Virus record (IMG/VR): IMGVR_UViG_3300025769_008778
Coordinates: 1 to 20,290 of that record
Strand: one strand, 5' to 3'
DNA length: 20,290 bases
Origin: a virus
Position numbers and translations under genes: made by a program. Within the stretch, counting starts at the first letter, position 1; every line of letters begins with the position of its first letter. Under the pieces are notes generated by a model. It saw nothing but the letters and a program-made list of their open reading frames with translations. It was not told the origin of the DNA and did no database searches. Shown piece after piece: positions 491 through 14,240 of this stretch.

Positions 491-797
491 TTGTGCTGGA
501 GTAAAAGAGTTAAGTATATTTAAAGAAGAAGTACCTAGAGCTAAACTTAATTTAGAAAAACCAACTCCATTACAAATGGAGAAAATTCAATGGCATATTA
601 TTACAAGTGAAAATGCTGAAGAGGTATTTAAAAAGTTAGAGGCTGAAGGTATTGACCCGGTGTTATGGGGTTTAACAGATAAAGACTTTGAATTGCTATC
701 AAAAAACTTTGCACAAATTCGTAATAAAATGGTAGAAACTAATGCCATATTAGATAAGTATAAAGAATATTATGAAAGTGAAGAAGATAAAGAGTAA
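420..797 (+). CDS. Outer-membrane spanin lipoprotein (o-spanin, Rz1-like)
   Basis: This 125-residue protein has a basic N-terminus (MLRRSLK), a hydrophobic h-region and a lipobox LTSC with the lipidated cysteine at residue 25. The remaining roughly 100 residues are polar and periplasmic. Its first 71 bases overlap the end of the i-spanin gene in a different frame, as in lambda Rz/Rz1. GGAG at 406-409 is a usable ribosome binding site ten bases before the start. The expected role is to anchor in the outer membrane inner leaflet and complex with the i-spanin for the last step of lysis. It is longer and less proline-rich than lambda Rz1, so a different periplasmic lipoprotein function is possible. 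The stop codon overlaps the next start (TAATG at 795-799), which implies translational coupling. Confidence 0.7.
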   Translation: MLRRSLKSIQSVLLLLTLTIFLTSCAGVKELSIFKEEVPRAKLNLEKPTPLQMEKIQWHIITSENAEEVFKKLEAEGIDPVLWGLTDKDFELLSKNFAQIRNKMVETNAILDKYKEYYESEEDKE

Positions 798-1057
798 TGG
801 ACATTGTTGATATTTTAAACAGATATGGATTTGCCACCTTAGCTGCAATAGGTATGGGTTGGTTTATATATTTCATATATGTTTATATCACAACGCAAAT
901 TAAAGTAAAATTAGGTGAGATGAATGGTGTTCTAATTGGTCTTATAGACAGAATTCGTATGCTAGATAACGACTTAATTAGATTAAGAACTAAACTAAAC
1001 ACAATTCTCACTATCAGAGAAAATTCTAAGACAAAACAAGACGACAGCAAGAGCTGA
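797..1057 (+). CDS. Small membrane protein with coiled-coil tail, paralogue of 1564-1845
   Basis: This 86-residue protein has one N-terminal transmembrane segment (about residues 12-32) and an amphipathic, charged C-terminal helix rich in Leu/Ile at heptad spacing. It aligns along most of its length with the protein at 1564-1845. Shared features include IL-x-x-(Y/F)G near the start, AA-x-x-MG-x-FI in the membrane segment, M-x-G-x-x-x-GL after it, and (D/N)ND-(L/M)-I-(R/K)-L in the tail. It follows the spanin pair with overlapping stop and start codons. One short membrane helix plus a charged coiled tail recalls BhlA/UviB-type holin-like proteins, so a holin or lysis role is plausible. The paralogue sits between csgF and csgG, so a curli-related role is equally possible. 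No function is proven. Confidence 0.75.
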   Translation: MDIVDILNRYGFATLAAIGMGWFIYFIYVYITTQIKVKLGEMNGVLIGLIDRIRMLDNDLIRLRTKLNTILTIRENSKTKQDDSKS

Positions 1058-1061
1058 TTCG

Positions 1062-1069: not shown

Positions 1070-1074
1070 CCAGT

Positions 1075-1563
1075 ATGAAAACATCATTTAAAATGATGTT
1101 AGTAGTGTCAATCATATCATTATTACAAACGAATTCATTAATACTAGCATCGGAGTTAGTCCATGAATTTAGCAATCCAGCCTTTAGTGGTAATGGATAT
1201 TCTCAACATGTCTTATCTGTAGACCAATTACAGTCACAGAGAAAGAAAGCCAATGAAGATGAGGCTAAATCAGCAGCCGCAGCTGCTGAAAGAGATGAGA
1301 AAAATAAGACAGTAAACAAATTTATTGCTAATGTGGAATCCAGAATTTATGCCAACTTATCTAAACAGTTAGTAGATAACATGTTTGGAACAAGTTGTGA
1401 TAGTAGTACGACAACATGCCCTACAAGTGGAACTGCCGAGATTGAGGGTGCAAGTATCTATTGGGTAAAAGACGCAACTACTGAAGTAATTACTTTAACA
1501 GTAACCGCTGATGATGGTTCTGTAACTACAATATCTGTGCCGATAGGAGATTTTCAATTTTAA
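1075..1563 (+). CDS. csgF: CsgF-like curli assembly factor
   Basis: The product is 162 residues with a signal peptide (about 1-26, ending SLILAS). The mature N-terminus, VHEFSNPAFSGN, matches the diagnostic CsgF start (E. coli FQFRNPNFGGN), followed by a Gln-rich QLQSQ segment. In E. coli this N-terminal part inserts into the CsgG pore, and the C-terminal part sits outside the cell, where it links secretion to curlin nucleation. The rest fits too: an amphipathic helix (about 80-104) and a C-terminal beta region with ITLTVTADDGSVTTISV like the E. coli LQLNVTDRKTGQTSTIQV. Unlike E. coli CsgF it has an Ala/Lys/Glu-rich helical stretch (about 55-80) and two cysteines near 108-115. There is no clear ribosome binding site at 1075. 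Met7 or Met8 (1093, 1096) are alternative starts that would still leave a signal peptide. Confidence 0.88.
   Translation: MKTSFKMMLVVSIISLLQTNSLILASELVHEFSNPAFSGNGYSQHVLSVDQLQSQRKKANEDEAKSAAAAAERDEKNKTVNKFIANVESRIYANLSKQLVDNMFGTSCDSSTTTCPTSGTAEIEGASIYWVKDATTEVITLTVTADDGSVTTISVPIGDFQF
1080..1100. repeat. 21-base perfect inverted repeat over the csgF start
   Basis: AACATCATTT (1080-1089), a single A (1090), then AAATGATGTT (1091-1100) form an uninterrupted inverted repeat. It lies 5 bases after the first csgF ATG and covers the in-frame alternative ATG at 1093. As RNA, the outer 7 to 8 pairs could form a hairpin that hides that second start. As DNA, the symmetry suits a dimeric repressor site just downstream of the late-promoter motif. 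Confidence 0.5.
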
Positions 1564-1845
1564 ATGGAGATGTTTCTAACAATATTAGGCAAGTTTGGTT
1601 TACCTGTAGCAGCTGCTGTTGTTATGGGGTTTTTTATATTTTTGGTAATAAAGTATATTTTAGACTCTGTTGTAGGACAAGTTTCAGGAATGCATGGAAT
1701 TATAATGGGTTTGGAAAATAGAGTTAAGAATATGAATAACGATATGATTAAATTAGACATACAAATTTCAGACGCATTAAATCTTAGACAAGATGAAGAA
1801 AGAATTAGTAGAGCCGATGGAAAAGAAGACGCAAGGAGAGATTAA
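1564..1845 (+). CDS. Small membrane protein between csgF and csgG, paralogue of 797-1057
   Basis: This 93-residue protein has a single strong transmembrane segment (about residues 10-33) and a charged helical tail ending in a Glu/Arg/Asp-rich region. It aligns with the 86-residue protein at 797-1057, so the pair probably arose by duplication around csgF. The ATG follows the csgF stop with no gap, and AGGAGA at 1545-1550 is the nearest ribosome binding site (13 bases away, slightly long). Its stop overlaps the csgG start (TAATG at 1843-1847). Its position inside the csgF-csgG pair suggests a role with the secretion channel or in inner-membrane energising or gating. A holin-like role is the alternative. 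It is not a known Csg protein. Confidence 0.75.
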   Translation: MEMFLTILGKFGLPVAAAVVMGFFIFLVIKYILDSVVGQVSGMHGIIMGLENRVKNMNNDMIKLDIQISDALNLRQDEERISRADGKEDARRD

Positions 1846-2681
1846 TGCTAAAATTTTTGCAGGTGGTCTTAGTGGGATTAATAGTGACAGGTTGCGCCAA
1901 CACGGCAAAGGATGTCAAAACATTTCAAGGCAGTATGCCATATGTTGAGGGTACGCCTACACTAGAACAACTGAAATCAATTCCTGATTTGGATGGTCAA
2001 CCAAAGATTACTATTGCAGTATATAAATTTACTGACCAAACAGGACAGAGAAAACCTAGTACAAAGTTTTCTCAGTTATCAACAGCTGTCACACAAGGAA
2101 GTGACGCATTTGTTATATCTGCTTTGAGAGCAGTATCAGATGGCGACTGGTTTCAAGTTGTTGAAAGAAATGGTTTAGATAATCTTGTCAAAGAGAGACA
2201 GTTGATTAGAAGTACAAGAGATTTATATGATGGTGAACAAGAAATACAAAATGTATTAAAACCATTATTGTTTGCAGGTTTACTTATTGAGGGTGGTATT
2301 GTAGGTTACGATAGTAATATACAATCAGGAGGTGCAGGTGCTAGATATTTTGGCATAGGCTTAAATGAACAATATAGAGTAGACCAAGTTACTGTATCAA
2401 TGAGAATTGTATCAGTACAATCAGGAGAAATTTTACTATCCACTAATGTGACTAAGACCATTGCAAGTCACAGTAGTGGTGGAGATGTGTTCAGATTTTT
2501 AGACATGGGCACAAAGGCCTTAGAATTAGAAACAGGTGTGGCCGTAAACGAACCTGTGAATTATGCAATACGGACTGCTATCGAGTTTGCAGTTTTAGAC
2601 ATGATTTACGCTGGTGAAAAACAAGGTTTTTGGAAGTTTAAAAAAGAAAAAATAAAAACTATCCATGAGGATAGAAAATAA
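1845..2681 (+). CDS. csgG: CsgG-family outer-membrane curli secretion channel
   Basis: The 278-residue product is almost the same length as E. coli CsgG (277). A lipoprotein signal ends in the lipobox VTGC with the acylated cysteine at residue 17. Family signatures are clear: the AVYKFTDQTGQRKP segment, STAVTQG, the LDNLVKERQLIRSTR helix (E. coli LQNLLNERKIIRAAQ), and a C-terminal DVFRFLDMG ... NEPVNYAIRTAIEFAV ... GFW block. CsgG forms a nonameric beta-barrel through the outer membrane that exports unfolded curlin, gated by CsgE and capped by CsgF. The putative constriction loop (residues 72-78) differs from E. coli: it is one residue longer and lacks equivalents of Tyr51 and Phe56. AAGGAGAG just upstream is a strong ribosome binding site. 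It is coupled to the upstream small gene and followed by curlin-like substrates. Confidence 0.93.
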   Translation: MLKFLQVVLVGLIVTGCANTAKDVKTFQGSMPYVEGTPTLEQLKSIPDLDGQPKITIAVYKFTDQTGQRKPSTKFSQLSTAVTQGSDAFVISALRAVSDGDWFQVVERNGLDNLVKERQLIRSTRDLYDGEQEIQNVLKPLLFAGLLIEGGIVGYDSNIQSGGAGARYFGIGLNEQYRVDQVTVSMRIVSVQSGEILLSTNVTKTIASHSSGGDVFRFLDMGTKALELETGVAVNEPVNYAIRTAIEFAVLDMIYAGEKQGFWKFKKEKIKTIHEDRK

Positions 2682-2698
2682 GAAGGGACAAATAAGCT

Positions 2699-3388
2699 AT
2701 GAAAAGGATAATAAGCTATATTATGTTTGTTATGTTTGTAATGGCTGGTCCATCGTTTGCGAATGACATTTATGTGACACAATCTGGTGCTAACTTAGAT
2801 TTAGATATAACACAAGATGGCCAAAATAACACAGTAGGTAATGCTCAAACATCATCTGCTTCAACAGGTGCAACAACTGTGTTAGATATTGACCAAGTAG
2901 GTAACTCAAATGTCATTACATATCAGGTAAATGGTGCAACATACACAGGTACCATAAGTTTAACAGGTGACTCAAATGATGTCGATTTAAATTGTGATAG
3001 TGGAGGATCAAACAGCTCATGTGGAACTGTAACTGCTTCTATTACTATGGCCGGTTCATCAAATGATATTGATTTAGATATTGGTGAAACAAGTGACGCT
3101 TCAAACTCAACTGTAACTATAACAGGACAATCTGGTTCAGATTCAAATATTATAGCTGCAACAGTTGATGGTACAAGTGCCGTTTTAACTTTAACAGTAA
3201 ACGGTGATACTAACAATTACTTAATTGATATAGACGGTGACGGTGATGTTAATGGTCATACATTAATTCACTCACACACAGGTGGTATTGGAGATGTGGA
3301 TATTACACAATCAGGTGTTAATGATAACTACATTTCATTAACTACAAGTGGTGACAACGCTGACATTGATATATCACAAACGGATTAA
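2699..3388 (+). CDS. Curlin-like secreted amyloid subunit (CsgA/CsgB-type repeats)
   Basis: The 229-residue product has a signal peptide cleaving near FA/ND (residues 21-22). The rest is built of loose repeats of about 20-25 residues with alternating hydrophobic/polar strands and Gly/Asn/Asp turns: DIYVTQSG, LDLDITQDGQNN, TVLDIDQVGNSN, and near the end DVDITQSGVNDN and DIDISQTD. Alternating I/V/L with D/T/S/Q, and Q-x-G-x-x-N turns, is the curlin signature of strand-turn-strand amyloid units. The mature part contains no lysine or arginine, is rich in Asp, and has two cysteines close together (NC...SCG). It follows csgG by 17 bases with AAGGGA as ribosome binding site, so it is the natural export substrate. 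Whether it acts as the major fibre (CsgA role) or nucleator (CsgB role) cannot be decided. Confidence 0.82.
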   Translation: MKRIISYIMFVMFVMAGPSFANDIYVTQSGANLDLDITQDGQNNTVGNAQTSSASTGATTVLDIDQVGNSNVITYQVNGATYTGTISLTGDSNDVDLNCDSGGSNSSCGTVTASITMAGSSNDIDLDIGETSDASNSTVTITGQSGSDSNIIAATVDGTSAVLTLTVNGDTNNYLIDIDGDGDVNGHTLIHSHTGGIGDVDITQSGVNDNYISLTTSGDNADIDISQTD

Positions 3389-3389
3389 T

Positions 3390-3497
3390 ATGGAAAATAT
3401 AACACTTTTATTATATACAGGATTAATAATATATGTGGTTTACAAATTTTATAATTGGGTGCATACTCTTAACCCTTACGACTTTACCAACAAATAG
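3390..3497 (+). CDS. Possible 35-residue membrane peptide overlapping the FecR-domain gene
   Basis: An ATG at 3390, one base after the curlin stop, opens a 35-codon frame ending in TAG at 3495-3497. It is predicted to be a single hydrophobic helix (MENITLLLYTGLIIYVVYKF) with a short polar tail. It overlaps the FecR-domain gene start (3433) by 65 bases in another frame, and its ribosome binding site is poor. It may be a real micropeptide or a chance frame in AT-rich DNA that also encodes a signal peptide. Confidence 0.22.
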   Translation: MENITLLLYTGLIIYVVYKFYNWVHTLNPYDFTNK

Positions 3498-4548
3498 TTT
3501 AGCGACTATTGGTAATGTAAGTTTAAGTGAAGGTAAATCTGTAATTGACCGAAAAGATGGTAACAAAGGTATCATAGTAGAAAAAGATTTAGATGTCTTT
3601 ACCTATGATACCGTCAAGACCGGTAAAGGTAAAGTTGCTATTGAATTTTTAGATGAAACTAGAGTAGATGTAACATCACACTCTAAATTAATTATAGATG
3701 AATTTGTATTTGACCCTAATCAAAAAACTGGAAAGTTGTCTTTAAAGGCAGCTTTAGGTACAGTTAGATATGCTAGTGGTCAAATTGCAAAAAACTCGGC
3801 ACAAAATATTAGTATAAAAACTCCGACTGCTACAGTATCAGTTAGAGGTACAGACTTTGCAATGACGATAGATGAGATAGGTTCATCTACAATTATATTA
3901 TTACCAAGTTGTGATACAAATGGTAATTGTTTTGTCGGTGAAATATCTGTAGAAAGTGACGCAGGTCAGGTAATATTAAATCAGGCATTTCAAGCTACAC
4001 AAGTAGATACGCCTGAAAGTAGACCTATTAATCCTGTAATTTTAGATTTAGATGAATCACTTATTAATAACTTGTTAATAGTAAGAAGACCACCTAAACT
4101 AGAAGACCAAATACAGTATGAAAAAAATTTAAAAATTGTTGCTAATGCTTTAGATATTGATTTTTTAAAATTTGATGATTTAGAAGTTGATTTATTAGAA
4201 ACTGAAGAAGATGAATATGCTACAGCACTTGATATTGATTTTTTAGAACAAAATTTTTTAGTGGATATATTAGAACAATTAAATAAACAACTTGCATTAC
4301 AAATGAGAAGTGAGTTTGATAAAGCTAAAGACACAAGAAAAACAGGAAAAGATGAATTTGGAGTTATATTATTAGACGAAGCACCTGAATGGGTTTGGAT
4401 GAGAACAGATGAAGCAGGTAACAATGTAGTTTTAAGATTAGACCAAGAACAAGGGTACAATATAAATGTGGTACAACAAGATACTGAAATCAGAGATTAT
4501 ACTCTCGGCGAGGGAAGTAATGAAATCTATATACAACAAAACCAATAA
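3433..4548 (+). CDS. Exported FecR-domain protein with C-terminal curlin-like strand
   Basis: The 371-residue product has a signal peptide (about 1-24). A FecR-type beta domain follows (about 45-165): the repeat-like GKGKVAIEFLDETRVDVTSHS and ISIKTPTATVSVRGTDFAM segments, with the RGT-x-F signature at 138-142, are typical. Then comes an acidic linker with an internal duplication (ALDIDFL at 239-245 and 265-271, each followed by a related stretch). The C-terminal 43 residues look curlin-like and end GSNEIYIQQNQ, close to the SNEIYVSQTG and NDIYVTQSG starts of the two neighbouring curlins. No sigma factor is adjacent and there is no inner-membrane anchor like FecR of E. coli, so I infer a secreted or periplasmic structural or ligand-binding role, perhaps anchoring or nucleating fibres. 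AGGA at 3419-3422 precedes the start. The gene overlaps the next by 29 bases. Confidence 0.8.
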   Translation: MWFTNFIIGCILLTLTTLPTNSLATIGNVSLSEGKSVIDRKDGNKGIIVEKDLDVFTYDTVKTGKGKVAIEFLDETRVDVTSHSKLIIDEFVFDPNQKTGKLSLKAALGTVRYASGQIAKNSAQNISIKTPTATVSVRGTDFAMTIDEIGSSTIILLPSCDTNGNCFVGEISVESDAGQVILNQAFQATQVDTPESRPINPVILDLDESLINNLLIVRRPPKLEDQIQYEKNLKIVANALDIDFLKFDDLEVDLLETEEDEYATALDIDFLEQNFLVDILEQLNKQLALQMRSEFDKAKDTRKTGKDEFGVILLDEAPEWVWMRTDEAGNNVVLRLDQEQGYNINVVQQDTEIRDYTLGEGSNEIYIQQNQ

Positions 4549-5359
4549 AGAAAATTGGCTGATGATTGTTTTATGGTTTGGTGTATTTTTATGTTTTTTA
4601 ACCTTATGTACTAAAGCATTTTCAAATGAAATTTATGTATCACAAACAGGTTCAGGTGATAATTTAAATTTACAAATATTACAAGACGGTGAAGATAACA
4701 AAATAGATATGTCAATAGGTAATCATACAAACAATACAATAGAAATAGAACAAAAAGGTGATGATGGTTATGTTGGTTACACCTCATTATGGGGAAGTTT
4801 ATATAGTTGGGGTGGAGATATAGATGGTGATTATAATAGTTTGAGTATTAAACAATTATGTAATCAAGCACCTTCTTGTGGTGGTGATAGATTTGAGTTT
4901 CATATTTCAGGTTCAAATAATGATGTTGACTTTGCTCAAGGTTATCATGTACAAAATAATGGAACAGTTGACACACCAGATAGTTATGAATATGGTGGTC
5001 ACTTTGTAAGATTAGATATTCACGGTTCAAATAATAAGTTTTTAGGAAGTCAAAGGTCAAACAATTCAGGACACGAACATAGTAATGTTACTTACATTTA
5101 CGGTAATAGTAATGATGTTTATACAAGACAAGAATGGAACGAAGACAAAACAATAAATTTGACTATAAACAATTCTAACAATGATGTTGATTTGATACAA
5201 TTGGGTAATGCTTCACACAGCGCTACTATTACATTAAATGGTAGCTACGGTACAGATTTAGATTTATTACAACAAGGTAGTACAGCACAATCATATACTT
5301 TATCACAATCATGTGCTACTGTTGGTGGTTGTTCAGTTTCAGTAACACAAGGAAATTAA
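4520..5359 (+). CDS. Second curlin-like secreted protein
   Basis: I choose the ATG at 4520 because AGGGAAG (4511-4517) lies just before it. The open frame runs back to an ATG at 4466, but that would extend well into the preceding gene and lacks a better site. The product is 279 residues. It has a signal peptide of about 35 residues (hydrophobic core about 13-29, ending KAFS) and then NEIYVSQTG, matching the mature start of the first curlin. Curlin-like units follow: LNLQILQDGEDNK, TIEIEQKGDDG, repeated SNNDVDF / SNNKF / NSNDVY / SNNDVDLIQLGN turns, and a terminal CSVSVTQGN. It is richer in aromatic and basic residues than the first curlin and has two cysteine pairs. It probably is a second export substrate of CsgG, either minor subunit, nucleator or adhesive tip. 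Confidence 0.78.
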   Translation: MKSIYNKTNKENWLMIVLWFGVFLCFLTLCTKAFSNEIYVSQTGSGDNLNLQILQDGEDNKIDMSIGNHTNNTIEIEQKGDDGYVGYTSLWGSLYSWGGDIDGDYNSLSIKQLCNQAPSCGGDRFEFHISGSNNDVDFAQGYHVQNNGTVDTPDSYEYGGHFVRLDIHGSNNKFLGSQRSNNSGHEHSNVTYIYGNSNDVYTRQEWNEDKTINLTINNSNNDVDLIQLGNASHSATITLNGSYGTDLDLLQQGSTAQSYTLSQSCATVGGCSVSVTQGN

Positions 5360-5375
5360 GGAGAATTTAATTCAA

Positions 5376-5705
5376 ATGAAAGAGATAATAGCAATTATCG
5401 GCACAGTTGTCCTAATTGTTTCTCTCTGGTCATTTGCGAAAGCGGAATCTATATCAAATAAAGTGATGAAACAATGTGTAGAAATGTATAAACCAGATTG
5501 GAATAAAGCAGCTGCATGTCATAGTGACTACAGAGTTGGTCAAAGAAAAACAGACAACGAAAAAATAAAAAAATTGTTAGCAGAAAAACCTTGGTACAGA
5601 GGTAAAAATTGGAATTGGGAAGAACCTGCTAAATTAAATTATAGTTGTAGAAAAGATTTATCAAATGGTGCGACAATATGCCAAAGACCTTATTACATTA
5701 ACTAA
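5376..5705 (+). CDS. Small exported four-cysteine protein, function unknown
   Basis: The 109-residue product has a signal peptide (about 1-23, ending FAKA). The mature domain of about 86 residues has four cysteines (34, 48, 91, 102) that could form two disulfides, and a tryptophan-rich middle (KPWYRGKNWNWEEP). AAGGAG at 5358-5363 is the ribosome binding site, overlapping the stop of the curlin gene. It lies between the second curlin and the CHASE2 cyclase, so it could be a periplasmic accessory of either. I see no CsgE or CsgC similarity: CsgE is longer and lacks this cysteine pattern. I do not recognise a family. Confidence 0.7.
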   Translation: MKEIIAIIGTVVLIVSLWSFAKAESISNKVMKQCVEMYKPDWNKAAACHSDYRVGQRKTDNEKIKKLLAEKPWYRGKNWNWEEPAKLNYSCRKDLSNGATICQRPYYIN

Positions 5706-5708
5706 ATA
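5702..5708 (+). promoter_or_regulatory. Possible late-promoter-like CTAAATA motif before the cyclase gene
   Basis: CTAAATA overlaps the preceding stop codon and ends three bases before the first cyclase ATG. That gene has no visible ribosome binding site. If the motif acts like a T4 late -10 element, transcription would start in or beside the ATGATG at 5712-5717. The motif is short and AT-rich, so this is weak evidence. Confidence 0.2.
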
Positions 5709-5711
5709 GAT

Positions 5712-7580
5712 ATGATGAAGAAATTATTTACTCATTGGGCATTTGCCTTTGTTACATTATTTGCTCTCACATGGGTAGGTTTACAAGACCCTCAAATCAA
5801 AGAGATATTGAGGTTGAAATCCTTTGACTTACATTTTCAAAATCAAAATCCAGAAATATCACAAGACATTGCTATTGTTACAATAGATGAAAAGGCTATT
5901 GAAAAATATGGTCAATGGCCATGGAAAAGAGATGTACTTGCTGATGTAATATTAGAATTAAGAAAACAAGGTGCTGGTGTAATTGTATTACCTATTTTAT
6001 TTTCAGAACCAGATAGATTAGGTGGAGATGAATATTTTGGCCAAGTTTTAAATGGTAATTTTGTAGTAGTTGCACAAACAGGTTCACATCAAACACAACA
6101 AAACGGATACCCTAGAGGTGTTGCAAAGATAGGTAATCCTTTAGAGTGGTTATTTGAATGGCCAGGCATGGTAGGTCCTATACCAGAAATAGGAGATAAT
6201 GCAGCTGGTGTAGGTACAACAAATGTATCTCCTGAAATAGACGGTGTTGTAAGAAGAATGCCTTTACTTATGAAAATAGGTAATGATGTTTATCCTAATA
6301 TTGCAATCGAAGTAATTAGAACTGCTACAGGTGACCCTAGTTATCAAGTTAAATCTGGTGACGCAGGTATAATTGCCATGAGAGTACCAGGTTTTGCAAC
6401 AATAAAAACGGATGCAAACGCAAGAATATGGTTGACTTGGAACAAAGCATATCCTTCAATATCAATTGCAGATTTAGGTACAAACGAATTTAGACTTGCA
6501 AATAAAACAGTTATCATAGGAATGAAAGCAGAGGGACTTGGTGGCGTGATTGCTACACCAAGTGGAAGTAATTATGATTACATAGCAGTTGCTTCAACTT
6601 TACAAACAGTTATAGATGGTGTTAATATTGAAAGACCTGATTTATCATTTATTATAGAATTAGTTGTTGCCTTTTTAGTAGGAAGTGCTATAATAATACT
6701 CACAAGATTTACACCATATTATGTGGTTGGTGGAATAATGGTTGCCTTTTCAACAGCGGCTGTATATGGTACAATTTATTTCTTTGGTAAAAATCAATTA
6801 GTAGATGTTACTTGGATTTTAGTAACAATATTATTTGTAGGATTGCATAGTATATTTAATAGGTTTATCTTAGAATTTAAACTAAAACAACAAATTAGAA
6901 AACAGTTTGAATCTTACCTTGACCCTCGACAAGTCGCCATATTACAGAAAGACCCTAGTAAATTAAAATTAGGTGGTGAACGAAGAGAAATGTCTTTCTT
7001 ATTCATGGACATTGTAGGATTTACACCTATCTCTGAATACTATAAAAATAATGATGACCCCGAAGGACTTGTACAAGTTATAAATGATTACTTAAATAGA
7101 ATGAGTAAGATAGTATTAGACAACGGTGGTACAATTGACAAGTACATGGGTGATTGCATAATGGCCTTCTGGAACGCACCCCTAGACTGTCCTAATCATG
7201 CGGAGATGGCTGTTAAGACAAGTATAGAATGTGCTAAAGAAACGGCAAGATTAAAGAAAGAATTTAAAGATAAAGGACTACCAGACATAAACATAGGTTC
7301 AGGTGTAAACACAGGTACTTGTATCGTAGGTAATATGGGTAGTGATATGAGGTTTGACTATTCAGTCATTGGTGACGCAGTTAACTTAGCTGCTAGACTA
7401 GAGGCTGCAACACGAAATTACAAAGACAAAAAAGGTAATGTCGTGGCTACATTATATTCATCTTATACAATGGACCAACTTAAAGATATTAAATCTATAG
7501 AAGTTGACAAAATTAAGGTGAAAGGTAAAGAAGAACTAATTACAATTTATAAACCTGTGATGGAAAAGGAGGATGCTTAA
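5712..7580 (+). CDS. CHASE2-domain membrane class III adenylate/guanylate cyclase
   Basis: The 622-residue product has an N-terminal membrane segment (about 8-24) and then an extracytoplasmic CHASE2 sensor domain (about 30-305). CHASE2 hallmarks visible are KSFDLHFQ, IAIVTIDEKAIEKYGQWPW, GVGTTNVSPEIDGVVRRMPL and a late NKTVIIG. Three transmembrane helices follow (about 313-385), then a cytoplasmic cyclase domain (about 425-618). Catalytic residues are present: metal-binding Asp433 (FMDIVGFT) and Asp481 (KYMGD), Lys477 and Ser551 at the base-selecting positions, and Asn558 and Arg562 (AVNLAARLE). The enzyme therefore looks complete and most likely makes cAMP, with cGMP less likely. In bacteria CHASE2 cyclases often neighbour FecR-domain genes, as here. 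A full-length sensor cyclase is unusual for a phage. No clear ribosome binding site is seen; Met1 and Met2 are both possible starts. Confidence 0.93.
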   Translation: MMKKLFTHWAFAFVTLFALTWVGLQDPQIKEILRLKSFDLHFQNQNPEISQDIAIVTIDEKAIEKYGQWPWKRDVLADVILELRKQGAGVIVLPILFSEPDRLGGDEYFGQVLNGNFVVVAQTGSHQTQQNGYPRGVAKIGNPLEWLFEWPGMVGPIPEIGDNAAGVGTTNVSPEIDGVVRRMPLLMKIGNDVYPNIAIEVIRTATGDPSYQVKSGDAGIIAMRVPGFATIKTDANARIWLTWNKAYPSISIADLGTNEFRLANKTVIIGMKAEGLGGVIATPSGSNYDYIAVASTLQTVIDGVNIERPDLSFIIELVVAFLVGSAIIILTRFTPYYVVGGIMVAFSTAAVYGTIYFFGKNQLVDVTWILVTILFVGLHSIFNRFILEFKLKQQIRKQFESYLDPRQVAILQKDPSKLKLGGERREMSFLFMDIVGFTPISEYYKNNDDPEGLVQVINDYLNRMSKIVLDNGGTIDKYMGDCIMAFWNAPLDCPNHAEMAVKTSIECAKETARLKKEFKDKGLPDINIGSGVNTGTCIVGNMGSDMRFDYSVIGDAVNLAARLEAATRNYKDKKGNVVATLYSSYTMDQLKDIKSIEVDKIKVKGKEELITIYKPVMEKEDA

Positions 7581-7614
7581 TATCATATAATTTTCTAAAA
7601 TAAAAGGAGGTCTT

Positions 7615-7821
7615 TTGACTAAATTACGACAGAGAAAACTACATAAAGTAATTAAGAAGAGAGTAAGAGCCGACCATAGAACACGATTATATTTAATTTT
7701 TTATAATTGGGTTTTAATTAGAAAACAAAAAGATAGAAGGAGAAGAAGAACATTAAAAAAACTTTGGAAAGAAGATAGATTAAGACAACTGAAAAACGGA
7801 GGTATTCCTTTGGCAGCCTAA
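7615..7821 (+). CDS. Small highly basic protein, TTG start
   Basis: The 68-residue product is about one third Lys/Arg, including a run of five arginines (residues 41-45) and a central hydrophobic/aromatic patch (LYLIFYNWVLI, about 25-35). AAGGAGG at 7604-7610, four bases before TTG, is one of the strongest ribosome binding sites in the window and decides this non-ATG start; no ATG in frame would give the full protein. It could bind RNA, DNA or the ribosome, like small basic phage proteins. I do not recognise a family and specifically cannot match it to ribosomal S21. Confidence 0.6.
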   Translation: MTKLRQRKLHKVIKKRVRADHRTRLYLIFYNWVLIRKQKDRRRRRTLKKLWKEDRLRQLKNGGIPLAA

Positions 7822-7929
7822 AATCATAAATATGAAATATAGGACAATCTAAAAAAGGTGCCTGTTTACACAGCAATTCAAAGTTATGTTTAAAGTCCTA
7901 TTTCAGCGTCCAAAAGGATAGATAGTTTA
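7822..7929 (+). other. 108-base non-coding gap with possible RNA structure
   Basis: No gene is seen here. GAAATATAGGAC (7834-7845) can pair with GTCCTATTTC (7895-7904), leaving a two-base bulge. They enclose a loop that holds a small CTGT-TTAC-ACAG hairpin (7862-7873). This could be a structured 5' leader of the next gene, a processing site or a small RNA. The pairing is modest for AT-rich DNA. AAGGA at 7914-7918 serves the gene at 7930. Confidence 0.35.
7825..7832 (+). promoter_or_regulatory. Late-promoter-like motif CATAAATA
   Basis: CATAAATA lies four bases after the stop of the basic protein, about 98 bases before the next ATG. It differs from the T4 late consensus TATAAATA only at the first base. 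Transcription from about 7838 would produce a leader containing the paired elements of this gap. Confidence 0.35.
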
Positions 7930-8349
7930 ATGGAAACAACAGACATAAAAGTACAATTAGAGGGTCTAAAAAAAGATATTGAGAATGTCAATCATCTCAA
8001 TGGTAGATTAGACACAGCAATTGAAAAGTTAACAGATGTATCTACATCCATTAAACAGATGTTAGCTGTACACGAAGAAAAAATATCCAGACAAGAACAA
8101 ATAGATGAGATTATTTTTGATAAATTAAAAGAACGAGCTGGTGAAATTGATACCGTTCATAGAGAACTAAGTAAAGAAATCCAACAGGTAGAAAAACGAT
8201 TACTCATTGAAATGAAGCAAATAAAGCTTGACATTGGCGGGAGAGTTGGTATACTAGAGAAGTATAAATGGTTGGTATTAGGTGGTGCTATAGTCTTAGG
8301 TTGGGTCTTCTCGGCAAATTTCAAAACCATTATAGAAATGATGTCATAG
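7930..8349 (+). CDS. Coiled-coil protein with C-terminal membrane anchor
   Basis: The 139-residue product is almost entirely charged alpha-helix with heptad-like spacing (about residues 5-112). One hydrophobic segment follows near the C-terminus (about 114-130, WLVLGGAIVLGWVF), then a short tail. It has no signal peptide, so the long coil is probably cytoplasmic and tail-anchored in the inner membrane. Similar architecture occurs in phage membrane scaffolds, anti-holin-like proteins and superinfection factors, but no motif selects among them. It stands alone between two non-coding gaps and is probably expressed with the late genes. Confidence 0.75.
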   Translation: METTDIKVQLEGLKKDIENVNHLNGRLDTAIEKLTDVSTSIKQMLAVHEEKISRQEQIDEIIFDKLKERAGEIDTVHRELSKEIQQVEKRLLIEMKQIKLDIGGRVGILEKYKWLVLGGAIVLGWVFSANFKTIIEMMS

Positions 8350-8356
8350 GAACTGG

Positions 8357-8381
8357 AGTGCTTTTAACCAAAAAAAGCGCT
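8357..8381 (+). terminator. Hairpin after the coiled-coil gene, weak terminator candidate
   Basis: AGTGCTTTT (8357-8365) pairs with AAAAGCGCT (8373-8381) through nine pairs, one of them G-T, around a seven-base loop. A T-rich tract (8397-8404) follows only about 15 bases later, not directly. It marks the boundary between the envelope block and the replication block and may end transcription or stabilise the 3' end. Confidence 0.3.
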
Positions 8382-8408
8382 TGAAAATTCTCTGGTATTT
8401 TTTTATGC

Positions 8409-8422
8409 TGGAAGTTTTTCCA
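8409..8422. repeat. Short inverted repeat abutting the -35 box
   Basis: TGGAA (8409-8413), GTTT, TTCCA (8418-8422) form a 5-base-pair hairpin or small palindrome ending three bases before the TTGACA of the promoter. It could be part of an operator. It is too short to be sure. Confidence 0.25.
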
Positions 8423-8425
8423 CCA

Positions 8426-8454
8426 TTGACAATATTATGTGTTTAGTGTATATT
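8426..8454 (+). promoter_or_regulatory. Sigma-70 promoter for the primase/nrd block
   Basis: TTGACA at 8426-8431 is a perfect -35 box. A spacer of exactly 17 bases leads to TATATT at 8449-8454, five of six matches to TATAAT. It lies in the gap before the primase, the natural start of an early/middle replication operon read by host RNA polymerase. The expected transcription start is near 8461, only about four bases before the primase ATG. Confidence 0.75.
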
Positions 8455-8464
8455 AGAGTTTGCT

Positions 8465-9463
8465 ATGTCGAGTTATATTGATTTAAAATTTATTAATGAG
8501 TTAAGTGCCAGATTGTCGCAGTTTAAAAAGAAAGGCGACTATTTGTTCAACTTTAGATGTCCCCATTGTGGTGATTCTAAAAAGAACAAAACCAAGGCAA
8601 GAGCCTATCTCTATAGAGTAAAAAATGACATGTTTTTTAAATGTCATAACTGTGGTGAAGGACAGAGTTTTGGAAATTTACTAAAATTCTTAGATAATAA
8701 GAAGTACGAACAATACTTATTAGAAAGATACAAAGGGTCGGCACCCTCCACGCCTCAGCCGAAGTTTACAAACTTTAAACCAGAATTTAAAGAGGTAGAC
8801 ATACTGAATGGTCTTCAATCTGTTTCTGATTTGAAAGAAGACCATCCAGTAAAACAATATGTTTTAAAAAGAATGATACCCGAATCATATCATTCAAAAT
8901 TATTTTTATGTGATAAGTTTATGGCATTTGTGAACAAAACAAAGCCAAATACTTTTAGTCATACAAAAGGTGAACATCCAAGATTGATTATACCTTTTTA
9001 TGACATAGACGGAAAAGTGTTTGCTTATCAAGGCCGAGCTTTCGGTAAAGAACAACCAAAATATCTAACTATTAAGTTAGACGAGAATAAACAAAAGGTT
9101 TACGGTTTAGATACTGTTAACCTACAAGAACATATTACTATAGTCGAAGGACCTATAGATAGTATGTTTTTAAATAATTGTTTGGCGGCTGCCGGTGCAG
9201 ACTTGACAATAAAGGTAGAACCTGATAATGTAACATACATATTTGATAATGAGCCAAGAAACAAAGAAATTATAAAAAGAATGTATGATGTGATTGAAAA
9301 GGATTATAATGTGGTCATCTGGCCAGATGATGTACAACTGAAAGATGTAAATGATATGATTATGAATGGTATGACAAAGGCAGAGGTACAAAGTATTATA
9401 AGTAGCAACACCTTTTCAAAATTAGAAGCGTTAACTAAAATGAGTTATTATAAGAAATGTTAG
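8465..9463 (+). CDS. T4 gp61-like DNA primase
   Basis: The 332-residue product matches the T4 gp61 layout. An N-terminal zinc-binding domain has CPHCGDSK (Cys32, Cys35) and CHNCGEG (Cys60, Cys63); the FRCPHCGDSKKNKTKAR stretch is close to T4 FRCPVCGDSK. A TOPRIM-type catalytic domain has EGPID (228-232) and FDNEPRN with Asp261 and Glu263, then the VNDMI element. It makes RNA primers for lagging-strand synthesis with the replicative helicase gp41, which is not in this window. The MSS start agrees with T4 gp61. No ribosome binding site precedes it and the promoter places the transcript start about four bases upstream, so translation is probably leaderless or nearly so. Confidence 0.93.
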   Translation: MSSYIDLKFINELSARLSQFKKKGDYLFNFRCPHCGDSKKNKTKARAYLYRVKNDMFFKCHNCGEGQSFGNLLKFLDNKKYEQYLLERYKGSAPSTPQPKFTNFKPEFKEVDILNGLQSVSDLKEDHPVKQYVLKRMIPESYHSKLFLCDKFMAFVNKTKPNTFSHTKGEHPRLIIPFYDIDGKVFAYQGRAFGKEQPKYLTIKLDENKQKVYGLDTVNLQEHITIVEGPIDSMFLNNCLAAAGADLTIKVEPDNVTYIFDNEPRNKEIIKRMYDVIEKDYNVVIWPDDVQLKDVNDMIMNGMTKAEVQSIISSNTFSKLEALTKMSYYKKC

Positions 9464-9472
9464 GAGAGATTA

Positions 9473-11788
9473 ATGGTAAATAAAGAAATATTAAATGTAA
9501 AGAAAAGAAACGGAAGAGGTACTGAACCTCTTAACATTGAAAAGATACACGAAATGGTGGAATATGCATGTGAAGATATTTCAGGTGTATCATCATCTCA
9601 GGTTGAGATGTCAAGTGGCCTACAATTTTATGATGGTATGACCACAGATGAAATTCAACAAATTTTAATTAAATCAGCTTCAGACCTTATCTCATTAGAA
9701 AATCCTAATTATCAATATGTAGCGGCTAGATTACTTCTTTATAGTTTGAGAAAACAAATTTTTCGTAAATTGTGGGACCACCCACACATTTATGACCATG
9801 TGAAAAAATGTGTAGATATCGGAGTTTATGATAACGAAATCTTAACTTGGTACGACAAAAAAGATTTTGATAGAATGGAAAACTGGATTACACACGAAAG
9901 AGATTATGATTTCACATATGCAGGCCTAAGACAGGTCATTGACAAATATTTGGTACAAGACAGAAGCACAGGTGAGGTATTTGAAACCCCTCAATTTATG
10001 TATATGATGATTTCTGCTACTTTATTTGCCAAATATCCAAGTAATAAAAGGATGAGTTATGTTAAAAAATATTATGACGCAATTTCAAAATTTAAAATCA
10101 ACATTCCTACTCCCGTTATGGCGGGTGTTAGAACACCTATTCGCCAATATGCTAGTTGTGTGTTGGTTGATGTTGATGATACTTTGCCTAGTATTTTCAG
10201 TAGTGATATGGCTATTGGCAATTATGTTGCACAAAGGGCTGGTATCGGTATTAACGCTGGGAGAATCAGAGGTATCAATTCGAGGATTAGAGGCGGTGAA
10301 GTCCAACACACAGGAGTTATACCTTTCCTCAAAAAGTTTGAGTCAACAGTTAAGTGCTGTACTCAAAACGGTGTTAGAGGTGGCAGTGCAACGGTTCACT
10401 TCCCTATTTGGCACAAAGAAATAGAAGACATTATTGTTTTAAAGAACAATAAAGGGACAGAGGATAACAGAGTTAGAAAATTAGATTATTCAATTCAGTT
10501 GTCTAAAATATTTTATGAGAGGTTTATAAATGATGAAGATATTACATTATTTTCTCCACACGAAGTACCTGAACTCTACGAGGCTTGGGGCTCGCCTGAA
10601 TTTGATGAACTTTATAAAACAGCTGAAAGAAAAACCAGCGTCAGTAAAAAGAAAGTGTCAGCACAATCGTTGTTGTTCGACATGCTTAAAGAAAGAGCAG
10701 AGACAGGAAGAATTTATATTATGAACATTGACCATTGTAATACTCATTCTAGTTTTAAAGATAGAGTTTACATGTCAAACTTATGTCAAGAAATTACATT
10801 ACCTACAGACCCTATTCAACACATTGATGGAGAGGGTGAGATTGCATTATGTATTTTAAGTGCTATCAATGTAGGTAAATTAAACTACCTTGAAGACTTA
10901 GAAAGTCTTTGTGACCTTGCAGTAAGAGCTTTAGATGAAATTATTGACCATCAAAGATATCCAGTTAAGGCTGCCGAAGTATCTACAAAGGCAAGAAGAA
11001 GTCTTGGTATTGGTTATATTGGTCTTGCACATTACCTAGCAAAACTAAAATTAAAATATAGTGATAAACAAGCGTGGAAAGAAGTTGACGAATTAACAGA
11101 GGCATTTCAATTCTATCTATTAAAAGCAAGTAATGAAATTGCAAAAGAAAAAGGTCAATGTGATTACTTCCACCGTACAAAGTATTCAGACGGCATCCTA
11201 CCAATTGATACTTACAAAAAGGAAGTTGATGAACTTTCAGGCAGAAAACTGTCTATGAAATGGGAACAACTCCGTAAGGATATCAAAGAACATGGGCTAA
11301 GACATAGCACCTTATCAGCTCAAATGCCGTCTGAATCTTCTAGTGTGGTTTCAAATGCTACAAACGGCATTGAACCACCTAGAGATTATTTAAGTATTAA
11401 AAAATCTAAAAAAGGTACTTTAAAACAAGTTGTACCAGATTATAATAGATTGAAGAACCATTATACTCTTTTATGGGATATGAAAGGGAATGAAGGATAT
11501 ATAAATATCGTTGCAGTAATGCAAAAGTATTTTGACCAAGCAATAAGTGGTAATTGGTCTTACAATCCAGAAAATTATGAAGACAACCAGGTGCCAGTTT
11601 CAGTAATGGCTCAAGACCTATTGTCAACATACAAATACGGTTGGAAGACTTCTTATTATCAAAATACATATGACGCTAAGAAAGACCTTGACGAACCAAC
11701 ACATCCAGTTGGTTGGACAGATAATGTAGAAGAGGATAAACCAGCAACATTGCAAGTCGAAGAAGATTGCGATAGTTGTACAATATAG
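9473..11788 (+). CDS. nrdA: Class Ia ribonucleotide reductase, alpha (catalytic) subunit
   Basis: The 771-residue product is full length for NrdA (E. coli 761). It has an N-terminal ATP-cone-like region (about 5-95), then the ten-stranded barrel with all key residues. Cys229 (QYASC) and Cys460 (IALC) are the substrate-reducing pair, and NLCQE (436-440) holds the thiyl-radical Cys438 with Asn436 and Glu440. Tyr728-Tyr729 (SYYQNT) carry the radical from NrdB, and Cys766/Cys769 in the C-terminal tail (CDSC) are re-reduced by thioredoxin or glutaredoxin. It converts ribonucleoside diphosphates to deoxy forms for phage DNA synthesis. GGAGAG upstream is the ribosome binding site. Unlike some phage nrdA genes it has no intron or split. 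Confidence 0.97.
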   Translation: MVNKEILNVKKRNGRGTEPLNIEKIHEMVEYACEDISGVSSSQVEMSSGLQFYDGMTTDEIQQILIKSASDLISLENPNYQYVAARLLLYSLRKQIFRKLWDHPHIYDHVKKCVDIGVYDNEILTWYDKKDFDRMENWITHERDYDFTYAGLRQVIDKYLVQDRSTGEVFETPQFMYMMISATLFAKYPSNKRMSYVKKYYDAISKFKINIPTPVMAGVRTPIRQYASCVLVDVDDTLPSIFSSDMAIGNYVAQRAGIGINAGRIRGINSRIRGGEVQHTGVIPFLKKFESTVKCCTQNGVRGGSATVHFPIWHKEIEDIIVLKNNKGTEDNRVRKLDYSIQLSKIFYERFINDEDITLFSPHEVPELYEAWGSPEFDELYKTAERKTSVSKKKVSAQSLLFDMLKERAETGRIYIMNIDHCNTHSSFKDRVYMSNLCQEITLPTDPIQHIDGEGEIALCILSAINVGKLNYLEDLESLCDLAVRALDEIIDHQRYPVKAAEVSTKARRSLGIGYIGLAHYLAKLKLKYSDKQAWKEVDELTEAFQFYLLKASNEIAKEKGQCDYFHRTKYSDGILPIDTYKKEVDELSGRKLSMKWEQLRKDIKEHGLRHSTLSAQMPSESSSVVSNATNGIEPPRDYLSIKKSKKGTLKQVVPDYNRLKNHYTLLWDMKGNEGYINIVAVMQKYFDQAISGNWSYNPENYEDNQVPVSVMAQDLLSTYKYGWKTSYYQNTYDAKKDLDEPTHPVGWTDNVEEDKPATLQVEEDCDSCTI

Positions 11789-11799
11789 AAAGGTAACTT

Positions 11800-12444
11800 A
11801 TGGCATATTTGTGTGTCAATACACCTCATGTTGATGTGTATGTTAAGAAAGAATATCTATATGATGGTAATAGAGGACATGGTGAATTAGTTGAGGGTGT
11901 ATGGGTAACAGCTAAGTCTATTCAAGGTAGAGCATTATATTTTGAAACATATATTCCTGAATATGGTGCTTTGTATGACAAGTTGCCAATTAGTGCGTTT
12001 GTATGGAAAAAAGATTATGAAGGAGAAGTACCTTTAACAGAATTACAGTTATGGGATTGTTTTAGTTATGATATTGCAATTATTGAAAAACAAATGCTTA
12101 GTGGCAATCAATGTAAATATTTGTCGTCAAGTAAAAAATGGTATAAGGGTTGGTACATGTTTACAATAGACAATGCTAACTCAACAAATTTAGAAAGAAA
12201 TATAACTTATAGTGAAGTACCGTCACAACATAAGTCATTTAATATTCTAAAGTTAGAGAACGGCTATTTTGCAGCTCAACCTAACAATAGAGTAATATTC
12301 TATGATAAGAGTTATACTCCTAGCGAGTTGAAGTTTCCAGACTTCAATGTGTCCACTAAAGAGTATAGTGTAGAATGTGAACAAAAATGGACAGCAGGTG
12401 ATGACGATAAATTCTTTTATGATTTAGAGGAGAGAAAAGAGTAA
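11800..12444 (+). CDS. Unknown protein between nrdA and nrdB
   Basis: The 214-residue product has no signal peptide or membrane segment. It is rich in Tyr, Trp and Phe with alternating beta-like segments (for example GVWVTAKSIQGRALYFETYIPEYGALYDKLPISAFVW). AAAGG precedes the ATG, and the stop overlaps the nrdB start (TAATG at 12442-12446), so it is made together with the reductase subunits. The location suggests a link to reductase regulation or dNTP metabolism, but I recognise no domain. I recall unknown genes at this position in marine T4-like phages, which makes a conserved phage protein likely. Confidence 0.8.
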   Translation: MAYLCVNTPHVDVYVKKEYLYDGNRGHGELVEGVWVTAKSIQGRALYFETYIPEYGALYDKLPISAFVWKKDYEGEVPLTELQLWDCFSYDIAIIEKQMLSGNQCKYLSSSKKWYKGWYMFTIDNANSTNLERNITYSEVPSQHKSFNILKLENGYFAAQPNNRVIFYDKSYTPSELKFPDFNVSTKEYSVECEQKWTAGDDDKFFYDLEERKE

Positions 12445-13547
12445 TGGCTAAAAGCGTATTCAGTAAAGAAAAAGGACTAGACTTCACAAAACAACCTATG
12501 TTTTTTGGTGAGGACTTACAAGTACAACAATATAGTGATATGAAATATCCTATATTTGATAAATTAAACCAACAACAATTAGGTTATTTTTGGAGACCAG
12601 AGGAAGTTTCTTTACAGAAAGATAGAAACGATTATCAAGAATTATCTCCTCAACAAAAGTTTATTTTTACTTCTAACTTGAAGTATCAAACTATGTTAGA
12701 TAGTGTACAAGGTAGAGGTCCATGTTTGGCCTTTTTACCATTTGTATCTAATCCTGAATTAGAAGGCTGCATTGTCACATGGGATTTCATGGAAACAATT
12801 CACAGTAGAAGTTATACATACATTATCAAAAATCTATACTCACAACCTAGTGAAGTGTTTGATACAATTATTGAAGATGAAAAGATTGAAAAGAGAAGTA
12901 AATCAGTTACACAAACCTATGATGAATTAATTGAATTAGGTTATAGATGGCATTTAGATAAGAGTAAAGTTGACCTTTATGAACTTAAAAAGAAAATGTA
13001 TCTTGCAATGGTAACTGTAAACATTTTAGAAGGCCTTAGATTCTATGTATCGTTTGCTTGTTCGTTTGCATTTGGTGAACTTAAATTACTTGAAGGTTCT
13101 GCTAAGATTATTTCTTTTATTGCAAGAGATGAAAGTCAACATCTTGCAATGTCACAAACAGTTATCAATAACTGGCATGACCGTAATGATGACAAAGATA
13201 TGTTAAAGATTAGAAAAGAATTAGAACAAGAAGTTTACAAAATGTATGATGACGCATTACAGGAGGAAAAGCGTTGGGCAACACATCTATTTTCTCAAGG
13301 AAGTATGATTGGATTATCAGAAAAACTGTTACACCAATTTGTAGAATACATGGCGAACAGACGAATGAAAAGTATCGGACTAGAACCAAGATACGAACAA
13401 AAATCAAACCCTCTACCGTGGGTAGACCATTGGTTGAATTCAAAGGGTACACAAAACGCACCACAAGAAACAGAAATTGAGTCCTATGTTATTGGTGGTA
13501 TTAAACAAGATGTTAAAAAGGACCAATTCAAAGCATTTAAACTATAA
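12444..13547 (+). CDS. nrdB: Class Ia ribonucleotide reductase, beta (radical) subunit
   Basis: The 367-residue product is normal for NrdB (E. coli 376). All diiron ligands are visible: Asp86, Glu117 and His120 (METIHSRSY), Glu196 (ILEGLRF), Glu230 and His233 (ARDESQH). The radical tyrosine is Tyr124, seven residues after Glu117 as in E. coli (Glu115/Tyr122). It is therefore a tyrosyl-radical enzyme, not a Tyr-less class Ic form. It delivers the radical to NrdA through its C-terminal tail. It is coupled to the upstream unknown gene and to the following zinc-ribbon gene, since TAATG joins each pair. Confidence 0.96.
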   Translation: MAKSVFSKEKGLDFTKQPMFFGEDLQVQQYSDMKYPIFDKLNQQQLGYFWRPEEVSLQKDRNDYQELSPQQKFIFTSNLKYQTMLDSVQGRGPCLAFLPFVSNPELEGCIVTWDFMETIHSRSYTYIIKNLYSQPSEVFDTIIEDEKIEKRSKSVTQTYDELIELGYRWHLDKSKVDLYELKKKMYLAMVTVNILEGLRFYVSFACSFAFGELKLLEGSAKIISFIARDESQHLAMSQTVINNWHDRNDDKDMLKIRKELEQEVYKMYDDALQEEKRWATHLFSQGSMIGLSEKLLHQFVEYMANRRMKSIGLEPRYEQKSNPLPWVDHWLNSKGTQNAPQETEIESYVIGGIKQDVKKDQFKAFKL

Positions 13548-13726
13548 TGGAAAAAGCAATCAAAAAGTGTTCCTCATGTGAGACTAAATATACCGTACAA
13601 TGGGATATTGAAGAGCAAGATTTAGAACCTCTTACATGCCCATTTTGTGGATATGAGGTAGAAAATGAAGAAGACCAACCAGAAGAAGTCTGGACTAACG
13701 AAAACGAAGACGACAATTGGGATTGA
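13547..13726 (+). CDS. Small zinc-ribbon protein (59 residues)
   Basis: An ATG overlapping the nrdB stop (13545-13549) opens a 59-codon frame ending in TGA at 13724-13726. The product has CSSC (residues 8-11) and CPFC (31-34), a two-knuckle zinc ribbon, followed by a strongly acidic tail (about 37-59, Glu/Asp/Asn-rich with two Trp). Zinc ribbons of this size typically bind nucleic acid or a polymerase. The acidic tail suggests protein contact or DNA mimicry. Its last 62 bases overlap the next gene in another frame. The coupling, coding-like composition and paired CxxC knuckles argue that it is real. Confidence 0.72.
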   Translation: MEKAIKKCSSCETKYTVQWDIEEQDLEPLTCPFCGYEVENEEDQPEEVWTNENEDDNWD

Positions 13727-14240
13727 TTATAGTTTAACAAGTCCAGCTGTTTGTTTAGATAATGGAAACTTGATGTTTTATTATCTAACAAATAAGAAAA
13801 AGTGGATTGGTCAAATGAGTGAGGATATAATTGGTTATGAACATAAAGAGTGGACTGACCCTATACAAAGATTTACTTACATCTCTGATTTTGTGTTTGA
13901 CATTATCGGTTCGCTTGTTAATCCTGAAATTTACATTGAGGGTTATTCTTTTGGTTCTAAAGGCCAAGGTCTTTTTCAAATCGCTGAAAATTGTGGCATA
14001 CTCAAATATAGACTTCTCGAAAAAGGTTACACATATAATACCGTTGTACCAAGCGTTGTTAAAAAAGGTGCTACAGGCAAAGGTAACGCAGACAAAGACA
14101 TGATGTACGAGGCATTTGTAAAAGAAACTAACATTGATTTGAAACAAATATTTGATACAGAAAAAGTAGGTAACCCTATATCAGATATTGCAGATAGTTA
14201 TTTTATACAAAAGGTTGGTTATGATAATTATTCCAGATAA
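13665..14240 (+). CDS. RuvC-fold nuclease, probable Holliday-junction resolvase
   Basis: The 191-residue product has the RNase H/RuvC acidic set in order: Asp21 (IGIDYS), Glu92 (YIEGYSFG), then Asp174 and Asp177 (PISDIADSYF). The conserved VVPSVVKKGATGKGNADK segment (about 127-144) lies between, like the RuvC P-x-x-(V/W)K-x-x-x-TGxG-x-A-x-K element. Such enzymes cut branched DNA before packaging or during recombination. They are common in marine T4-like phages, whereas T4 itself uses the unrelated gp49. GAGG at 13655-13658 is six bases before the ATG and supports this start despite the 62-base overlap with the zinc-ribbon gene. No other ATG, GTG or TTG precedes the first catalytic Asp. Confidence 0.85.
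   Translation: MKKTNQKKSGLTKTKTTIGIDYSLTSPAVCLDNGNLMFYYLTNKKKWIGQMSEDIIGYEHKEWTDPIQRFTYISDFVFDIIGSLVNPEIYIEGYSFGSKGQGLFQIAENCGILKYRLLEKGYTYNTVVPSVVKKGATGKGNADKDMMYEAFVKETNIDLKQIFDTEKVGNPISDIADSYFIQKVGYDNYSR

Follow-up and report, generated by a model that had tools for sequence, protein, structure and literature searches.

The closest described relatives of the system considered here are the type VIII secretion (curli) modules of pelagiphages, which occur in HTVC023P-type podoviruses and in the myovirus HTVC008M and which run in the order (PMC9599517, PMC7029224) CsgF, CsgG, CsgA/B, FecR, a second CsgA/B and an adenylate cyclase. The stretch of DNA analysed here, referred to as the window, is a viral record of 20,290 nucleotides (IMGVR_UViG_3300025769_008778, positions 1 to 20,290) with a cassette of this type, at the right end of which lie a FecR-domain protein and a cyclase with a CHASE2 sensor domain. 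Since a curli module that includes FecR and the cyclase was already published for phages in 2022 (PMC9599517), the cassette, in which an earlier, sequence-only reading of the window had picked out the FecR/cyclase pair, is a further example and not a new system. New here are a bacterial six-gene operon, a missing receptor, a curlin-like tail on the FecR protein and a variable slot for PA14-curlin display proteins, no description of which was found in the available portions of PMC9599517 and PMC7029224. Our overall reading, to which we give a probability of roughly 0.5, is that a captured curli cassette displays fibres and that its CHASE2 cyclase senses fibre export or the state of the envelope and makes cyclic AMP (cAMP).

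Two further systems bear on this reading. The Methylophilales phage Melnitz (PMC9004378) carries the same cassette, with a cyclase 48% identical to that of the window (67% for HTVC008M); csgA and csgB were said to be lacking in Melnitz (PMC9004378), and its record annotation gives two curlin-repeat proteins, FecR and the cyclase. The CyaD1/CyaD2/CyaK-Clr system of Sinorhizobium meliloti resembles the phage arrangement in its CHASE2 adenylate cyclases, its outer-membrane input and the presence of a FecR protein in its regulon (PMC5498481, PMC13001267). There, the CHASE2 cyclases act downstream of an outer-membrane protein (PMC13001267), CyaD1 without its CHASE2 domain produces cAMP constitutively, and the FecR-domain gene SMc02177 is within the Clr regulon (PMC5498481). 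It differs in having a cAMP receptor, Clr, whereas none was found on the phage side, and, as described, in having no curli genes.

The curli cassette and its predicted sensor cyclase

The cassette genes, in the order CsgF-CsgG-curlin-FecR-curlin-cyclase, all share the + strand, and neighbouring open reading frames (ORFs; Table 1) overlap or lie a short distance apart. The core of type VIII secretion is present, with CsgG (PF03783), CsgF (PF10614) and curlin (PF07012) all over the cut-off, and curlin-like proteins stand on both sides of the FecR protein. No Pfam match to CsgE, CsgC or CsgD was found among the cassette ORFs. Alphaproteobacterial-type curli modules likewise lack these three (PMC9599517), and membership of the core curli systems stands because they are dispensable for fibres in some lineages.

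The cyclase is tightly linked to the other cassette genes. Linkage was counted in two viral scans at loci with enough flanking DNA, the scans holding closest relatives only and contigs found by both being counted twice. On this basis, FecR lies upstream in 61/61 viral cyclase loci, CsgG is present in 49/50 and CsgF in 45/46; starting from viral CsgG loci, FecR is found downstream in 67/67 and the cyclase in 40/41.

The domain make-up that the sequence-only reading gave to the 622-residue cyclase protein is confirmed, and so are the five catalytic residues that it named. These comprise the metal-binding residues Asp433 and Asp481, the adenine-reading Lys477, and the transition-state residues Asn558 and Arg562; Asn558 is kept in 75 of 77 viral homologues and the other four in all 77. 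To these can be added the second adenine-reading position, absent from the earlier reading, which is Ser551 (Ser in 75/77) and which together with Lys477 makes up a Lys-Ser pair, as in class IIIb. By its residues, the enzyme is thus predicted to be catalytically complete and to turn ATP into cAMP. The solved relatives closest by sequence are mostly adenylate cyclases, the nearest cyclase domain being that of Pseudomonas aeruginosa CyaB (3r5g; 38% identity over about 200 residues in the fold match), where Thr is aligned with Ser551; CyaB and CyaC (1wc1), both solved adenylate cyclases, are also among the best fold matches of the modelled domain. CyaB is unlike the phage cyclase in being cellular and in its different sensor part. 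CyaB acts through Vfr.

An AlphaFold model of the protein (predicted local distance difference test score, pLDDT, 84.7) has helices at 10-25, 312-333, 336-359 and 367-399. The outer part of the CHASE2 domain lies between transmembrane (TM) helices TM1 (10-25) and TM2 (312-333), so that the modelled layout is that of a CHASE2 receptor, with the domain between an N-terminal TM helix and C-terminal TM helices. A sequence search with the CHASE2 domain gave no solved relative. The ratio of non-synonymous to synonymous substitution rates (dN/dS) is 0.09-0.18 for the whole gene and 0.00-0.12 for the cyclase domain; this is therefore a real gene under purifying selection and not a chance frame.

Two observations concern variation in the cyclase. 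Against the locus L005, the cyclase domain is near-identical (dS 0.02) and the CHASE2 half diverged (dS 0.79), which points to intragenic recombination swapping the sensor half. Unlike the window cyclase, Melnitz-type cyclases (L003:9998-12049, L082:1058-2878) have Asp and Ser at positions 551 and 558, and their activity may differ since the transition-state Asn is lost.

Table 1. Features of the cassette and adjoining phage DNA, in window coordinates
Feature	Position	Strand	Evidence or remark
86-aa one-TM coiled-coil protein	797..1057	+	paralogue of 93-aa protein at 1564..1845
CsgF, curli fibre-anchoring chaperone	1075..1563	+	PF10614 E 1.4e-13
93-aa one-TM coiled-coil protein	1564..1845	+	phrog_18771, no assigned function
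CsgG, outer-membrane curli export pore, lipoprotein	1845..2681	+	PF03783 E 8.9e-53
Curlin-like fibre subunit 1	2699..3388	+	Curlin_rpt PF07012 E 1.6e-4, over cut-off
FecR-domain secreted/periplasmic protein, 371 aa	3433..4548	+	PF04773 E 2.7e-9
FecR domain, residues 59-149	3607..3879	+	Pfam; weak 5ix9 matches
C-terminal six-strand beta module, curlin-like last strand G-x(2,3)-N-x-I-x-I-x-Q	4363..4539	+	motif count, AlphaFold2 strands
Curlin-like protein 2, hypervariable fibre-subunit slot	4520..5359	+	Curlin_rpt E 0.0064, below cut-off
109-aa orphan ORF	5376..5705	+	no relatives among compared loci
CHASE2 - three TM - predicted class III adenylate cyclase, 622 aa	5712..7580	+	Pfam, residues, model
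CHASE2 match, residues 19-324	5766..6683	+	PF05226 E 2e-41
Three further membrane helices (312-333, 336-359, 367-about 387)	6645..6872	+	AlphaFold2; hydropathy for first and third
Class III cyclase domain, residues 426-611	6987..7544	+	Guanylate_cyc PF00211 E 8.5e-18
Phage backbone (primase, NrdA, NrdB, RuvC-like)	7936..14223	+	90-92% DNA identity to Pelagibacter phage Mosig

The FecR-domain protein and the variable subunit slot

The neighbour of the cyclase does have a FecR domain, as first supposed (Table 1), and its C-terminus resembles a fibre subunit. The core [NT]-x-[IV]-x-[ILVMS]-x-Q ends 43/43 FecR homologues, including the bacterial one, and the full curlin-like unit is found in 40/43 tails versus 0.6% of shuffled tails; the motif was defined post hoc from these tails, which belong to related proteins, and the counts therefore speak for conservation and resemblance and not for 43 independent events. 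Control FecR proteins from outside curli loci stop right after the FecR domain, which says only that the curlin-like tail is not general. The domain also has weak matches to the adhesin anchoring domain 5ix9, by sequence profile (positions 23-94, E 0.024) and by fold (E 0.0073). The tail and these matches suggest that the protein may serve as the fibre's base or anchor.

A FecI-type regulator was considered and is ruled out: in the AlphaFold model, which is a poor one (pLDDT 62), a signal-peptide-like helix (2-17) runs directly into the beta domain. The protein has no N-terminal cytoplasmic anti-sigma domain in this model, and no sigma-factor match was found among the window ORFs scanned.

The second curlin-like gene, the start of which was set at 4520 rather than 4466, occupies a hypervariable slot. 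Median identity to the window over 62-73 loci is 0.30 for the slot protein versus 0.65-0.73 for its neighbours, and slot proteins range from about 105 to 494 residues, most having a common C-terminal cap beyond which the short variants scarcely extend. Two sister contigs (L171, L172) match the window at 98-99% identity over 780-4618 and 5715-11380 and differ from it in the stretch between. In the first, the slot is occupied by a 443-aa protein (L171:10011-11342) that shares its signal peptide with the window protein and combines a PA14 domain (E 2.6e-8) with curlin repeats (E 5.8e-6); a PA14-curlin protein is also found in HTVC008M, and there are PA14 matches, some strong and some weak, at further loci. 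PA14 domains frequently bind sugars, and on this account the slot looks like that of an exchangeable fibre adhesin. A slot of this kind is easier to reconcile with adhesion, the capture of siblings or the masking of receptors than with a role as a pore alone. A text search of open-access papers for PA14 together with curlin and phage gave no paper.

The small one-TM proteins complete the cassette. At least one homologue adjoins CsgF in 89/95 viral CsgF loci with enough flanking DNA. The location of the 86-aa protein corresponds to that of the 'HK' of PMC9599517; where that paper has this gene, before CsgF, the window has one-TM proteins of 86-93 residues without a kinase domain, and these are probably what it names a histidine kinase. 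Even with the threshold relaxed to E<=5, the 86-aa protein matches no Pfam family significantly, and neither small protein was detected in the bacterial six-gene operons.

Probable bacterial origin, phage setting and the search for a receptor

An alphaproteobacterial origin of the phage module has been proposed, FecR and the cyclase being said to lie outside bacterial curli operons (PMC9599517). In contrast, two Caulobacteraceae operons hold both, and these are the missing cellular counterpart of the phage module. CHASE2 cyclases (E <= 1e-60) occur in 125/385 sampled genomes of Alphaproteobacteria, the class that includes the Caulobacteraceae metagenome-assembled genome (MAG) with the best cyclase match by far (462 bits versus 311). 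A contig of this MAG (L085) has CsgF, CsgG, two curlins, FecR and a CHASE2 cyclase in the phage order, and around them lie a gene resembling a TonB receptor and others of chromosomal type; a second Caulobacteraceae genome (L170) also has all six genes, 87% identical in DNA and set between different flanking sequences. In a quick maximum-likelihood tree, the viral cyclases and those of L085 and L170 form one clade (SH-like approximate likelihood ratio test, SH-aLRT, 100%) within the bacterial CHASE2 cyclases. The recurrence of the operon in two genomes supports capture as a unit, which had been put forward for the FecR/cyclase pair, though the unit is in fact a six-gene curli operon; the comparisons thus support acquisition of the cassette whole from an alphaproteobacterial source.

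Such operons are rare, CsgF being over the cut-off in 6/385 sampled genomes. That alphaproteobacterial curli operons generally carry FecR and the cyclase is ruled out, as the CsgFG loci L101-L105 have neither. FecR/CHASE2-cyclase neighbours were also held to be familiar in bacteria; the FecR profile was matched at 4/30 bacterial CHASE2 cyclase loci with flanks of about 1.5 kb (L106, L108, L112 and L122, L106 being the curli operon itself), so that such pairs do exist but are not a general rule. One further candidate, L084 (JADHSL010000081.1, from a Pirellulales MAG), was rejected as bacterial: its cyclase groups with that of Melnitz, it has the phage small-TM genes and FecR, and it is probably mis-binned phage DNA.

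The window itself is phage DNA, that of a SAR11 phage by its relationship to Pelagibacter phage Mosig, whose host in culture is Ca. P. ubique HTCC1062. NrdA and primase are 98% and 92% identical to their Mosig counterparts, and DNA identity of 90-92% across 7936-14223 ends leftward at 7936, the cassette boundary lying just left of this point. The record and this flank bear out the claim of a phage-encoded cyclase and rule out a cellular contig, the outcome that the sequence-only reading had named as refuting it. The equivalent site in Mosig has unrelated secreted ORFs and no cassette, and the cassette is therefore accessory. In HTVC008M it is at a different site, adjoining the tail region.

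Directly upstream of the cassette is a spanin-like pair (26-797): an inner-membrane spanin-like ORF with a TM helix and a coiled coil (26-490) is overlapped by an outer-membrane spanin lipoprotein-like ORF with an LTSC lipobox (420-797), and homologues are found in L012, L019 and L080. The corresponding region of Mosig has a holin-like gene. To the right, 14224-15566 and 16277-18232 show no DNA similarity to the corresponding Mosig stretch; they encode a 2OG-Fe(II) oxygenase and an FkbM methyltransferase, and an asparagine synthase.

A target for the cAMP was sought on both the host and the phage side. SAR11 genomes were recognised by exact match to four 16S probes (G209, G299), and 117 genomes of the order were searched, a set in which membership of HTCC1062 is not established and from which genomes of OM43, the Melnitz host, were left out. 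A SAM-V riboswitch search for SAR11 genomes gave nothing above the family cut-off. None of the 117 has a class III cyclase and 110 have no cyclic nucleotide monophosphate (cNMP)-binding domain. In the other seven the ORFs with the domain are about 870 residues long, apart from one cut short at a contig end, and the one examined (L151:919-3264, genome G439) has two cNMP-binding domains and a PlsC-like acyltransferase domain. This protein, which perhaps has an SGNH-hydrolase-like end, is of the only cNMP-domain type seen in the order. The 12 phage records searched (HTVC008M, Melnitz, Mosig and nine others, some of them fragments) have no cNMP-binding domain. With no CRP-type receptor visible in these genomes and records, the earlier idea that the phage rewires host cAMP signalling through CRP is not supported.

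Proposed fibre sensing and its alternatives

If the overall reading is right, an infected cell would export and display amyloid fibres by way of the CsgG pore, the CsgF anchor and two curlin-type subunits, one of them the variable display protein. The FecR protein, being secreted and having a fibre-like C-terminus, would probably sit at the periplasmic base of the fibre or pore. We infer by analogy that the CHASE2 domain would read fibre export, stalled subunits or the condition of the envelope, perhaps through contact with the FecR protein. The four-helix membrane part, whose topology beyond the model is likewise inferred, may relay this state to a cytoplasmic, homodimeric cyclase of class IIIb type. 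During infection the cyclase would turn ATP into cAMP, which would act on a receptor of phage or host origin.

Several points weigh against this reading. SMc02177 is dispensable for signal perception in S. meliloti (PMC5498481), which counts against direct FecR input; no receptor was found in the SAR11-order genomes or phage records searched, which leaves the cAMP output unproved; Mosig does without the cassette although it is over 90% identical in its core; and the tail of the FecR protein is described by a post hoc motif and a poor model. A bolder form of the reading is tentative: the cassette may install a self-contained cAMP circuit in a lineage without cAMP signalling, made up of a fibre-coupled cyclase, an unrecognised receptor of phage or host origin and exchangeable lectin-like subunits.

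A role for CsgG and CsgF as a lysis-timing or uptake pore (PMC9004378, PMC7029224), with the cyclase reporting pore opening and not fibre assembly, would suit the spanin-like pair upstream, the holin-like gene in the corresponding region of Mosig and the failure to find CsgE among the cassette ORFs. It is nevertheless unlikely, as the curlin-repeat proteins, the curlin-tailed FecR protein and the PA14-curlin slot fit fibre display better. The cyclase could also be a passenger, retained through linkage to the curli genes alone. Selection on the cyclase domain (dN/dS 0.00-0.12), conservation of the catalytic residues in 75-77 of the 77 viral homologues and the presence of the gene in 40/41 curli loci make this distinctly unlikely, even though no receptor is known, Mosig has no cassette, and the transition-state Asn is missing from the cyclases of Melnitz and L082.

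It is very unlikely that the cyclase supplies a cAMP/CRP circuit that the host already has, the proposal of the sequence-only reading and, in part, of the E. coli analogy in PMC9599517. Although the enzyme is catalytically complete by its residues, CHASE2 cyclases are common in Alphaproteobacteria, and a donor-type bacterial genome (G001) has cNMP-binding proteins, the SAR11 order offers no class III cyclase (0/117), no cNMP domain in 110/117 genomes and, where examined, only the acyltransferase-type ORF in the other seven, with no copy in the phage records searched. Least credible, indeed highly improbable, is that the enzyme makes cyclic pyrimidine nucleotides as in Pycsar defence or counters that defence: PADLOC PycC models do match at E 2e-24, but the match is limited to the cyclase domain common to both, Lys is retained at the adenine-reading position, the solved relatives nearest by sequence are mostly adenylate cyclases, and the tested neighbours match no PADLOC model, so that no PycTIR or PycTM effector is present among them.

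Few entities in the ocean are as abundant as SAR11 and its phages, and no function has so far been accepted for the curli genes of phages. An earlier, vague analogy was to the action of cAMP on csgD in E. coli (PMC9599517). The present data sharpen it, towards a possible cAMP binder other than CRP, a possible input through CHASE2 and exchangeable adhesins that may be displayed on infected cells. Mosig, with a core more than 90% identical and no cassette, offers a natural control that grows on the same host strain.

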